Shown here: piece after piece, positions 8,238 through 31,973 of the stretch
Layout: each line of letters begins with the position of its first letter
Position numbering within the stretch: position 1 is the first letter of the stretch
Virus record (IMG/VR): IMGVR_UViG_3300037234_000580
Span: 1-39,142 of that record
DNA: 39,142 nucleotides
Source of the DNA: a virus
Reading direction: 5' to 3' (one strand)
Translations under genes and position numbers: made by a program
The notes under the pieces: model-generated
Seen by the model: the letters and a program-made list of their open reading frames with translations, nothing else
Database searches by the model: none
Told to the model about the DNA's origin: nothing

Positions 8238-8822
8238 TCAAGCTTTGGCTATTAAATGCGCCCACTTGTAATCTTCTGAACCTTTAAATATTGTAAAGAA
8301 TTCATCATTAGTTATAAAAATATCATTCCCGTGTCGGTCTGCATAGTTAGTTCTAAAATTTCCATAGGGATCATCTATTAAATAACCATCGTCACCATAC
8401 CCAGCCAAAGAGACAATATGATTTAATATTTTACCATTTGGGAGAGTAAATTTTCCAGATAACACAATACCGCCACCATTATCTAAATGCTCTTTTATTT
8501 TAGAGACTGCAACCTCTGTTGAGAACACATCAATATCTTTACCAAAAAGCTCATTAGTTGCAGAGCATAAACAAGCATGTATTTCATTTGGCCTATATCC
8601 ATCCTTTTTATAATTAGGATTAATATTATCCATCATCAACCAATATTTTTTAGATAGGCATAATGTTGTTAATACATCCTCTGGTTGACCTTCCCCAAAA
8701 TTACATTCGTGTCCAGCTTGTTTTGACCCCATTATAATAGATGTTGTATTACAAGCCTCATGAGGAATAACTAAATTATTAACTTGGGAATGATAAGGTA
8801 TCCCTTTTGAATAATTTGTCAT
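8238..8822 (-). CDS. C39-like cysteine peptidase, candidate endolysin
   Basis: 194 residues with the papain-like C39_2 layout: Gln13 (oxyanion hole), Cys24 in IPHEACNTT, His135 in ILNHIVSLAGYG and Asp151 in the DDPYGN motif. It follows a holin-like gene by a four-base overlap, so it is the most likely cell-wall-degrading enzyme (cutting peptide bridges) of the lysis cassette. No signal peptide is seen, so release would depend on the holin. No cell-wall-binding domain is visible. A role as virion peptidase is the alternative. Confidence 0.75.
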   Translation of the reverse strand: MTNYSKGIPYHSQVNNLVIPHEACNTTSIIMGSKQAGHECNFGEGQPEDVLTTLCLSKKYWLMMDNINPNYKKDGYRPNEIHACLCSATNELFGKDIDVFSTEVAVSKIKEHLDNGGGIVLSGKFTLPNGKILNHIVSLAGYGDDGYLIDDPYGNFRTNYADRHGNDIFITNDEFFTIFKGSEDYKWAHLIAKA

Positions 8823-16139: not shown

Positions 16140-16156
16140 TATATTACTCCTCTATC
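16137..16156. repeat. 20-bp direct repeat, right copy
   Basis: Identical to 15887-15906. It comprises the end of the GroES gene (IEE-stop), the ribosome site and the ATG of the 81-residue gene. Confidence 0.95.
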
Positions 16157-16404
16157 ATTGCAATAATATCTTTTATATCAATAATTAAATGATTTTCATC
16201 ATCTATCTTAATAGGGGTTCCAGCGTATTTATCATAAATAACCTTATCCCCTGTTTCAATTGTTCTTATATCGCCTCGCTCTATTACAATTCCGTTATGG
16301 ACTTTCTCTTGAGCGGTTTGAGGTATAAACAAACCCGATGTTGTTCTCTGCTCTACAGCAGAAATTTTAACTAATACTCTTTCGCCTAATGGATTAATTT
16401 TCAT
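16144..16404 (-). CDS. groES: GroES-like co-chaperonin (Cpn10)
   Basis: 86 residues, slightly shorter than bacterial GroES (about 95). It starts MKINPLGERVLVKI, keeps the mobile loop that binds GroEL (TTSGLFIPQTAQEK) and the motifs VIERGD and GDKVIYDKYAGTPIKID, and ends in the C-terminal strand DIKDIIAMIEE. No GroEL is present, so it should act with host GroEL, like T4 gp31 does for capsid folding. It lies among structural genes and shares transcription with them. Confidence 0.93.
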   Translation of the reverse strand: MKINPLGERVLVKISAVEQRTTSGLFIPQTAQEKVHNGIVIERGDIRTIETGDKVIYDKYAGTPIKIDDENHLIIDIKDIIAMIEE

Positions 16405-25920: not shown

Positions 25921-26142
25921 CTACTCCTCCACCGTCTCAAACCAGTCATCGTAATCGATACCCAATTCATTTTTTAAAGATCGACATAACCCAATACTCA
26001 TATTCTCTGGGTGAGACTCCCCATTTTGGAATCGATACAAAGTGGCTCTTGTTACACCTAATCTACGAGATAGATCTGATACATTACCATCATCCATTGC
26101 CTTTTTTAACTTAACCTGTGCTATTGTTAATTTTTTACCCAT
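25921..26142 (-). CDS. HTH regulator (XRE/Cro-like)
   Basis: 73 residues. The helix-turn-helix VSDLSRRLGVTRATLYRFQNGE follows the XRE pattern of small phage DNA-binding proteins. GGAGTAAATC lies before ATG, and the start overlaps the deformylase end by eight bases, so they are co-expressed. Target unknown. Confidence 0.75.
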   Translation of the reverse strand: MGKKLTIAQVKLKKAMDDGNVSDLSRRLGVTRATLYRFQNGESHPENMSIGLCRSLKNELGIDYDDWFETVEE

Positions 26143-26584
26143 GATTTACTCCATTTCTGTTGAATATAGTTATTCCATTTAAATGATCTAACTCGTGTTG
26201 AAAACATTTTGACTCTAAACCTCTAAGCCTCCACTCTTTAATATTAGAATCTTTATCTAAAAACTTAACACCTATAGTACATGGTCGCATAATATTAACA
26301 GTTCCGTGAATTCCTTGCGGATAAGTTAAACACCCCTCTTTTAAAGCTTTTTTCTGTTTACTACTAAATATTATCTCTGGGTTGTAACAACTGATAATTT
26401 CACCTCGATATTTCATGATGAAAAACCTTTTATTAATTCCAACTTGTGGAGCAGCTAAACCGATACCTCTACCCATGATTTTAATCATATCTGGGATGAT
26501 ATTTTTCTCTACAGCTTGAATCTCAAAAATAGATAATTTATCACAAACACATCCCTCTACATATTTCTTATCTACTAATTCCAT
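26135..26584 (-). CDS. def: Peptide deformylase
   Basis: 149 residues. All three signature motifs are intact: GIGLAAPQVG (40-49), EGCLTYP (83-89, metal Cys85) and QHELDH (129-134, His130 and His134 with catalytic Glu131). The enzyme removes formyl groups from new proteins. Phage copies are shorter, as here, lacking the C-terminal extension. Strong GGAGGCGG site. Phage-encoded deformylase is known from some marine phages and may speed maturation of phage or host proteins. Confidence 0.95.
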   Translation of the reverse strand: MELVDKKYVEGCVCDKLSIFEIQAVEKNIIPDMIKIMGRGIGLAAPQVGINKRFFIMKYRGEIISCYNPEIIFSSKQKKALKEGCLTYPQGIHGTVNIMRPCTIGVKFLDKDSNIKEWRLRGLESKCFQHELDHLNGITIFNRNGVNHG

Positions 26585-30351: not shown

Positions 30352-30597
30352 TCACTCTCCCATCGCTTTTTTAAAATCAATCCATTGGCCTAAACCAGTA
30401 TAATTAAATTGATCCTCAGTTAACTCTATTTTGCAATCATCAACGATCACATAATATTTAATAATTTTTTCTGAAACATAACCATTCACAGGCTGTTCAT
30501 AGGGAAAGGAAAGAACAAATATAAAAAGTAATAATGTAATATTTCCTAGTATTATCATAATTATCATAAAAGTTTTATCTTTTAACGGGGTTAACAC
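30352..30597 (-). CDS. Single-TM hypothetical protein (GTG start)
   Basis: 81 residues, one membrane segment at about 9-31 (FMIIMIILGNITLLLFIF) and a soluble C-terminal part (YYVIVDDCKIELTEDQFNYT). Starts with GTG behind GGTGGTGAG; an internal ATG exists. The mini-gene 30575-30688 overlaps its start. Unknown function. Confidence 0.55.
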   Translation of the reverse strand: MLTPLKDKTFMIIMIILGNITLLLFIFVLSFPYEQPVNGYVSEKIIKYYVIVDDCKIELTEDQFNYTGLGQWIDFKKAMGE

Positions 30598-30688
30598 AAC
30601 TCACCACCTTTTTAACCAGTTTTTTGATCTTATATAATACTGGATGTCTGTATTTAAAGCATCGATTACAATGCGGATAATTTCTCAT
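30575..30688 (-). CDS. 37-residue mini-protein after the RNA region
   Basis: MRNYPHCNRCFKYRHPVLYK..., with an HCNRC cysteine pair and a basic end, behind AAAGGACTAAAC. It starts just past the putative end of the structured RNA and overlaps the following gene's start by 23 bases. Possibly just a leader peptide; unknown. Confidence 0.5.
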   Translation of the reverse strand: MRNYPHCNRCFKYRHPVLYKIKKLVKKVVSCVNPVKR

Positions 30689-30699
30689 GTTTAGTCCTT

Positions 30700-30728
30700 T
30701 AGTATAAAATAACCGGGTTCCCACCGGC
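30700..30728 (-). terminator. Terminator-like stem at the RNA 3' end
   Basis: GCCGG / CCGGT with loop TGGGAAC, then TTATTTTATA. It would end the structured RNA just before the mini-gene at 30688. The T tract is imperfect, so termination may be partial. Confidence 0.5.
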
Positions 30729-30843
30729 TGCTCAGCGTGGACGATCCATCTGATCTATAATAGGAAGGTTGGTAGCGATATACCAACACACTTCCCGTTT
30801 TAGAGTCCGGCGACTTATAACCCGTCATAAGACTAAGGTGTAT

Positions 30844-30967
30844 AAAGGGATAACGGAGTTGAACCGCTGACCTTCTGGACTTTCATAGACACGCTACACT
30901 AATCATTCATGACTAATTAGAATATATCTACTAATAACCAAACGCTCTGCCACTGAGCTAATCCCCC
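30844..30967 (-). tRNA. tRNA-like segment with oversized anticodon loop
   Basis: The 5' part begins GGGGGATTAGCTCAGTGGCA: acceptor GGGGGAT, D arm GCTC/GAGC. TTTGG and CCAGA form the anticodon stem, AGGTC the variable loop, and AGCGG-TTCAACT-CCGTT a proper T arm, followed by ATCCCTT (two terminal G-U pairs). Between the anticodon stem halves lie 59 bases instead of 7, with its own hairpin (CTAAT/ATTAG). The anticodon cannot be assigned, and no CCA is encoded. It is either a tRNA carrying an insertion or a tRNA-like domain of the larger RNA. Confidence 0.5.
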
Positions 30968-31244
30968 AGGTTGAGAGTTTATCCGATACCCACAAACGAA
31001 ATTTAAAAAGAAACTCCTACGTCTTACTTGAATGCATAGAAAGTATTACACCTCTCAAATATTAGCCTTTTTATACTGTGCGACTTCTTCCAGTAGCCCT
31101 AAATTTTAAGTCTCTATCCGAGTAGACTAAAAATATTTACATCCGCTATTTTCAATACGTGTAGACCTTAACGCAGTCTTTATTATTTCACGAACTATGA
31201 TAACGGTCATAGCTAATCGTAGTGTCTAAGCCATCTAACAGCTT

Positions 31245-31354
31245 TAGCCAAGGCAGGGATTTAGCACCCTGCATAGTTTACTAGCTATGGGACTTATAGA
31301 ATCCGAAACTTTCAACCTTATCTTTTTAGTGTCTACCTATTCCACCACTTGACC
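31245..31354 (-). tRNA. Degenerate tRNA-Leu-like segment
   Basis: GGTCAAG and CTTGGCT form a complete acceptor stem with two G-U pairs. The D arm TGGTGGAATAGGTAGACAC is a classical tRNA-Leu type. CATAG/CTATG could be the long variable arm and CAGGG/CCCTG a T stem, but the T loop is TGCTAAAT (8 nt, not TTCRANN) and no standard anticodon arm fits the 39 bases between D and variable arms. The length is 110 nt against about 86. Probably a tRNA-derived domain rather than a working tRNA. Confidence 0.4.
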
Positions 31355-31412
31355 GAAGGTTTTTCTATTAGATACCTACAAACAGGGCATAATTAAGGCT
31401 ATGCCAGACCTT

Positions 31413-31973
31413 TTAATTATTTATTGCTACTCTTTTACTTCCACCACTCCATGATATAGGTTGATTCTGTAAAAAATCATTAACAATATTTTCTATTTCA
31501 TCAACAGAATATTTTGAATCTTTGGTTTCGTAATCTCTTATTTCTCTATCTTCTGGAAGATCACCCTCGCAGAAATCTTGCATATCAAAATAGGATGCTG
31601 AATTAGGTTCACATAAGACCAATTGGAGATCCTCTACTTTAACGTTGTAAATCTCGCAATGATGCCATAAATCATCTGGATTCCAAAAATAGGTATCACT
31701 ATTAAAAATAGTTAATGGTGTTTTATTATCCCAAACAACCAACTCAAAAGAGTTAAATTTATCGTTTTGTTTTTTCTCTCTACATGAATTACAAGAAGTC
31801 CATGATTTACCGTCAATGACATTCCCACATTCACAAATACTTCCAATAGCTATGTTATATTCTGCTAACCTTTCATCTTGATATGCAAAACCATCACCAG
31901 CCTTAAACATTTCAACATTGACTTTTTCTACTTTTACACCTTCTGGTAGGATGTAGTATTTACCTTTATTCAT
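31413..31973 (-). CDS. Hypothetical protein with zinc ribbon
   Basis: 186 residues. CECGNVIDGKSWTSCNSCRE at about 48-67 is a treble-clef-like Cys set. The C-terminus is acidic and ends LQNQPISWSGGSKRVAINN. Strong GGGGTGAGG ribosome site. The gene directly precedes the structured RNA; nothing links the two functionally. Confidence 0.6.
   Translation of the reverse strand: MNKGKYYILPEGVKVEKVNVEMFKAGDGFAYQDERLAEYNIAIGSICECGNVIDGKSWTSCNSCREKKQNDKFNSFELVVWDNKTPLTIFNSDTYFWNPDDLWHHCEIYNVKVEDLQLVLCEPNSASYFDMQDFCEGDLPEDREIRDYETKDSKYSVDEIENIVNDFLQNQPISWSGGSKRVAINN

Follow-up and report, generated by a model that had tools for sequence, protein, structure and literature searches.

An anticodon-less, tRNA-Leu-like RNA in the terminase gap of a virus genome belongs to an apparently undescribed RNA family of phages

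In tmRNA, a long RNA takes the place of the anticodon arm in a tRNA-like body. Another non-coding RNA with a tRNA-like domain, YrlA, has been proposed to act as competitor to an anticodon nuclease (PMC7790460), and GOLLD and ROOL are phage-borne RNAs of hundreds of nucleotides that lie near or around tRNAs (PMC12286853). The locus described here comes from one virus record of 39142 bases, which was analysed over its whole length (the window), and holds two tRNA-like parts within a gap between genes. One of these, TLS1, is by its sequence a tRNA-Leu body minus the part that reads the code.

With ORFs of at least 60 aa considered, the gap (30598-31412, 815 nt) is the largest ORF-free stretch in the record and 2.5-fold the length of the runner-up (329 nt), which bears out the original prediction that had singled it out as the longest stretch without coding capacity. 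It lies inside a minus-strand operon, between the genes for the small and large terminase subunits, in the order TerS - DNA methyltransferase - HNH - gap - TerL. Both flanking genes (31413-31973 and 30352-30597) are on the minus strand and the gap transcript thus runs from 31412 to about 30700, where a 49-aa minus-strand frame (30575-30724; ATG at 30688, AAAGG nearby) suggests that the non-coding part probably stops. TerL and the flanking protein, used as queries, found no relatives among viral contigs, and the best identity reached by the portal protein was about 22-26%. Elsewhere in the window, a GroES-like co-chaperonin (16144-16404) and a peptide-deformylase-like protein (26135-26584) were recognised by eye.

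Read along the coding strand, the gap opens with 59 nt that contain a hairpin and a first copy (M1) of a short motif, followed by TLS1, 248 nt without assignment, a second motif copy (M2), the second tRNA-like part (TLS2) and, last, 144 nt in which hairpins and a terminator-like end are found. A consensus scan gave three terminator-like sites (0.8 expected), including a hairpin with a poor U run just past the upstream gene (GGCAUAGCCUUAAUUAUGCC; 31386..31405, minus strand) and the candidate 3' end, AGCCGG/CCGGUU followed by AUUUUAU (30704..30729, minus strand), whose 6-bp hairpin (30729..30711) and imperfect U run agree with the terminator-like end foreseen for the gap. A further hairpin, GUUGGUAUAUCGCUACCAAC, is found in the 3' part (30768..30787, minus strand). 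M1 (GUUUGURGGUAUC...AAAC...; 31355..31383, minus strand), a possible H-type pseudoknot, is directly upstream of TLS1, and M2 (GUUUGUGGGUAUCGGAUAAACUCUCA; 30972..30997, minus strand) directly upstream of TLS2. The motif is about 27 nt long (GUUUGURRGUAUC..AAAC.YCUCA) and recurs between genes of unrelated phages (viral loci L016, L134 and L201-L211); in BL3-type phages it also directly precedes TLS1, and elsewhere it stands alone. Its window copies have no match in Rfam, and it is suggestive that the interleaved helices GUUU/AAAC and URRG/CYYA could form in most of eight sequences.

TLS1 was first traced by a tRNA-Leu D-arm in the 5' part of the gap that runs on into non-tRNA sequence. It spans 31246..31354 on the minus strand, as supported by a covariance model from which the window was left out, a table of the family and covariation (see below). 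Its acceptor (GGUCAAG/CUUGGCU) pairs at all seven positions, the D-arm reads GUGGAAUAGGUAGACAC, and the T-arm (GCAGGG-UGCUAAAU-CCCUGC), which follows a variable domain, has one extra U in the loop. This variable arm, P3 (31275..31310, minus strand), replaces the anticodon arm and has a proposed closing helix of 5 bp (AGUUU/AAACU), which in the window copy alone is not significant (p 0.33) while for the family as a whole it is: the helix closing just before the T-arm averages 5.8 bp as opposed to 3.8 bp in shuffles, whose top mean was 4.5.

Across the family (46 distinct copies, each comprising acceptor, D-arm and T-arm), the acceptor has seven pairs of free sequence, the last always G-C. U8 and G9 precede the D-arm, GYG-GAAUAGGUAGA-CRC, which is followed by a linker of several nucleotides; between these fixed parts and the T-arm (six pairs, loop UGCAAAU) lies P3, 27-150 nt long, with a 3' strand that ends right before AU. 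Acceptor and T-arm stack to 13 bp, one more than in an ordinary tRNA. U8/A14, A15/U48 and G19/C56 are retained and G55 is present, yet the anticodon loop is absent, and no anticodon stem-loop was seen in any copy, including the shortest ones (84-92 nt). CCA is not encoded and the discriminator is unfixed (A in 23 of the 46 copies). The window copy has the 7-bp acceptor, U8 G9, the D-arm GYGGAAUAGGUAGACRC and the T-arm GCARGG-UGCAAAU-CCYUGC of its relatives, and it lacks the anticodon stem-loop with U33 that defines a canonical tRNA.

Among described RNAs, bacterial tRNA-Leu shares with TLS1 the D-arm (GUGGYGGAAU.GGUAGAC) and A15-U48, whereas TLS1 differs by its missing anticodon arm, a T-loop of UGCAAAU rather than UUCRANY, the 6-bp T-stem and the free acceptor. 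The tRNA-like domain of tmRNA (RF00023 and relatives) has its anticodon arm replaced, too, but TLS1 keeps a full D-stem, and variable arms as short as about 30 nt leave scant room for a tag-coding frame; tmRNA models found no match in the window. YrlA and other bacterial Y RNAs (RF02553) resemble TLS1 as non-coding RNAs with a tRNA-like domain; YrlA is further marked by a Ro-binding stem. However, a match in L016 reads as a permuted tRNA fold for YrlA, with both ends of the RNA on the side of the anticodon, while TLS1 keeps the normal order of tRNA arms, ends at the acceptor and has the variable arm where the anticodon would be; RF02553 gave no match on TLS1. The L016 match itself (8275-8340) is a weak YrlA-like, permuted RNA (37.7 bits) within an array of 30 phage tRNAs. 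In Listeria phage B025, three RNAs share the gap with TLS1, namely rliG (RF02415), reported as a Listeria RNA (PMC8079631), rli62 (RF01486) and mcrA RNA (RF03010); they are modules separate from TLS1 and none matches in the window. Phage A118 has rliG and no TLS1, and since its rliG has a terminator of its own, we dropped the idea that RNase P makes the rliG 3' end at TLS1. As a separate observation, the B025 gap contains an rli62/rliG-like domain (L132, 2314-2396), and many of the phage records that match this gap (251 from Staphylococcus, 50 from Listeria, 15 from Lactobacillus) share the domain, a range much wider than that of the Listeria RNAs held by Rfam.

Relatives of TLS1 were collected with sequence patterns. 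D-arm plus TAAARA matched three viral contigs and no genome in 257 Gb; one of these contigs, L123, carries two 90-nt copies with acceptor stems altered on both sides, and encodes proteins unrelated to those of the window. Phage records searched with one TLS1 copy yielded Listeria B025, Brochothrix BL3 and BtpYZU01, Enterococcus EG-TP1, phiFL2A and IME197, Paenibacillus Pd_22F, Weissella WC29P3 and others, and a T-arm pattern led to 50 viral loci. Conservation of the D-arm and T-arm is partly due to this way of selecting sequences; the acceptor stem was not in the search patterns, and copies needed at least five of its seven pairs only. In an alignment of 42 copies, 98.2% of stem cells are paired (79.1% in shuffles; 24-51% in controls slid out of register, against 98% in the true one), the covariation score is 0.554 compared with 0.153 in shuffles (0 of 500 reach it), six of the seven acceptor pairs show two-sided changes, and double-changed cells over the entire structure number 141 versus 38 in shuffles. 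The homologs of TLS1 do therefore carry conserved, covarying stems.

A covariance model built from 26 copies, the window excluded, recovered TLS1 in the window at 73.5 bits (E 4e-18) and matched nothing else there. Clear members outside the model, both prophage and phage copies, score 65-90 bits and ordinary tRNA-Leu genes 28-37 bits (at most about 37); for phiFL2A, PK3.5 and L124, at 30-48 bits, and for IME197, at 23.5, the model alone does not settle membership. One candidate relative, L122 (26.5 bits), is better taken for a tRNA-Leu with an intron and was set aside. Even at E 5, TLS1 in the window goes unreported by the Rfam tRNA model, ARAGORN did not call it in the loci examined, and no Rfam 15 entry for the family was found. 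The openly licensed literature searched contained no description of TLS1 or of anticodon-less or decoy tRNA-like phage RNAs. TLS1 thus apparently represents a widespread phage RNA family that has so far gone undescribed.

The family is phage-borne and found mainly in phages and prophages of Bacillota: its 50 matches in viral contigs compare with six among 84,980 species genomes, all of them Bacillota (three Paenibacillus, Sporolactobacillus, Enterococcus and a Clostridia bin). One Paenibacillus genome has three copies, and within a single Paenibacillus family 9 of 150 genomes carry one or more. Chromosomal copies examined are mostly near terminase, replication or late-regulator/late-activator genes, which places them mostly in prophages. 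The commonest phage site is the gap separating an ArpU- or RinA-type regulator from the terminase genes. Other copies sit beside primase, RecJ-like, DnaB/helicase, exonuclease, portal or endolysin genes, and given these neighbours (primase, helicase, portal, exonuclease, endolysin) a role as a fixed part of a late-operon leader was dropped. About a quarter of the copies are within some 200 nt of a real tRNA, for example a tRNA-Asn that follows after 87 nt in BL3 and BtpYZU01 or tRNA-Gly 84 and 112 nt downstream, and some abut it, with a tRNA 3' end 1-4 nt upstream of TLS1 in L144, L150, L165 and L177. Three BL3-like phages keep the flanks and cleanly lack TLS1; its absence from such close relatives at an otherwise conserved site marks it as a dispensable, accessory module. 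L201, L206 and L207 are natural relatives of BL3 that lack it. Two arrangements may be added. In L123 (600-1500), the two copies are 667 nt apart, each behind a short gene with a common N-terminus (MAKQIYIDSNGN), as if gene and TLS1 had been duplicated together; in L156, a second T-arm with the loop UGCGAAU about 15 nt before TLS1 suggests tandem TLS1-like modules.

What might such an RNA do? In one reading, which we consider about evenly balanced between right and wrong, the gap would yield two tRNA-like RNAs that are transcribed together as a small array, each behind motif M. Host RNase P and RNase Z would release TLS1 from the longer transcript in the fashion of a tRNA, and the RNA, presumably unable to decode, would occupy a factor of the host or of a defence system by which the tRNA elbow is recognised. 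Both the excision by host RNase P and the action on a putative elbow-binding factor are probable in our view. Tandem placement with tRNAs, together with the conserved acceptor, T-arm and elbow, points to RNase P and RNase Z as the processing enzymes; mimicry of an elbow ligand, which we hold with less confidence, is suggested by an elbow that alone is fixed while acceptor sequence and anticodon region are free. Known RNAs that act by tRNA shape, such as YrlA, make this mimicry reasonable, though the missing anticodon makes a decoy for anticodon nucleases in particular less likely. Leucyl-tRNA synthetase of E. coli, for its part, does not need the anticodon.

RNase P reads the acceptor helix, T-arm and elbow, i.e. 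the very parts that TLS1 conserves. TLS1 and TLS2 might hence be no more than processing signals in cis, at which RNase P cuts a polycistronic mRNA or leader and the excised RNA has no job. Such signals fit with the co-orientation of both modules and their neighbour genes and with L164, L167 and L123, where TLS1 by itself fills the space between two genes. They leave unexplained, however, a long folded variable arm and, RNase P accepting many tRNAs, the near-invariance of the D-arm and T-arm, and they sit uneasily with the diversity of gene contexts, so that to our minds a purely cis-acting role is possible yet doubtful. The variable arm invites a bolder proposal, a natural 'tRNA scaffold' with which phages of Bacillota would present interchangeable arms against different targets of the host or rival phages, on a tRNA-Leu elbow that is fixed and that, as in a tRNA, would be processed and protected; we regard it as rather unlikely. 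As antisense to its own phage the arm was rejected, only 1 of 31 loci reaching p <=0.05, which equals chance.

TLS2 (30844..30967, minus strand) differs from TLS1 in that Rfam recognises it (46 bits to RF00005). The anticodon loop of this tRNA body holds an insertion of 52 nt, folded as a single long hairpin and placed at 30884..30935 (minus strand; one of several equivalent placements), its acceptor ends in two G-U pairs and CCA is not encoded. Rfam and ARAGORN, the latter only when introns are allowed, both locate it at 30967..30844 with an insertion of 52-55 nt, and ARAGORN reads a tRNA-Phe with intron. Removal of the segment restores an anticodon stem (p <=0.005), but at several positions and with differing anticodons; TLS2 could still be a tRNA with an intron. 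In the viral loci we came across phage tRNA genes with a contiguous insert of 36-65 nt that interrupts the anticodon stem on its 5' strand, in most cases following position 28-30 (L004, L008, L047, L056, L071, L091, L093, L095, L107, L114 and about 20 more), which Rfam labels merely as tRNA. Taking out the insert rebuilds a perfect anticodon arm with U33 in 42 of 50 tested at p <=0.05. Type A inserts (40-57 nt) read UAAAA..hairpin..ACAGCAA and type B inserts (50-63 nt) consist of a long stem and GUUACUUC; these inserts resemble very small tRNA introns of a class not yet described, and the openly licensed literature yielded nothing on tRNA introns in phages. A third kind of insert, with GGUAAAGGACCGNAACGCUGG, is common to three tRNA-like genes (L076, L090, L111).

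Given such genes, and with TLS2 rejoinable at several equivalent points, both modules might be ordinary phage tRNA genes from which splicing would restore functional tRNAs. This we think unlikely: TLS1 shows no anticodon stem-loop to restore even in its 84-92 nt copies, and TLS2 has its insert in the loop, no unique anticodon and an acceptor that ends in two G-U pairs. The weak acceptor pairs of TLS2 and the missing CCA might indicate tRNA pseudogenes that decay in a gap of junk; this is very improbable and for TLS1 contradicted, since an acceptor that covaries across unrelated phages next to a near-fixed D-arm and T-arm speaks for purifying selection rather than decay.

The gap had also been put forward as one heavily structured 710-nt RNA, a possible relative of GOLLD or ROOL. 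Its full strand is no more stable when folded than dinucleotide shuffles (z -1.34 and -0.99 in two runs; coding background -0.4, sd 1.4), and by segment TLS2 is the sole one to stand out (z -2.5; TLS1 -1.3, 3' part -1.4), whereas the middle 277 nt (31244-30968) are less structured than shuffles (z +1.2). The reported 7-bp long-range stem may equal one of the two 7-bp acceptor stems. Rfam 15 at relaxed thresholds found only a tRNA above chance in the gap, the Rfam covariance models for GOLLD (its conserved 3' domain) and ROOL gave no match at E up to 5, and homologs for the remainder of the 710 nt outside the tRNA-like modules were not found. Nor did three or more cloverleaves tiling the gap hold up, as a generic cloverleaf scan, blind to TLS1 on account of a T-stem of 6 bp and a loop of 8 nt, put TLS2 alone above shuffles. 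With a whole-gap z of about -1 and only a tRNA above chance, the giant-RNA reading is unsupported beyond the modules. A divergent GOLLD- or ROOL-like cage RNA with embedded tRNAs thus seems the least probable of all, despite a similar length, a phage origin, nearby tRNA-like genes and the tRNAs sometimes found inside GOLLD linkers (PMC12286853), because no model matches, the gap structure is unremarkable and TLS1, a stand-alone module of about 85-200 nt that forms the conserved unit, occurs elsewhere without the rest of the gap. Of the original prediction there remains a non-coding phage stretch that matches no described RNA family and has two embedded tRNA-like parts, at 30967..30844 (Rfam, ARAGORN) and 31354..31246 (comparison with relatives), and the gap is a short run of separate tRNA-shaped RNAs, not a single giant one.

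TLS1 shows that tRNA-like phage genes can slip past Rfam and standard tRNA finders. With its 46 sequences and covariance model, the family is an alignable object on which tRNA mimicry against host enzymes or defence may be tested. The purpose of tRNA genes in phages is debated, and a tRNA-shaped family that does not decode separates the tRNA as adapter from the tRNA as shape.
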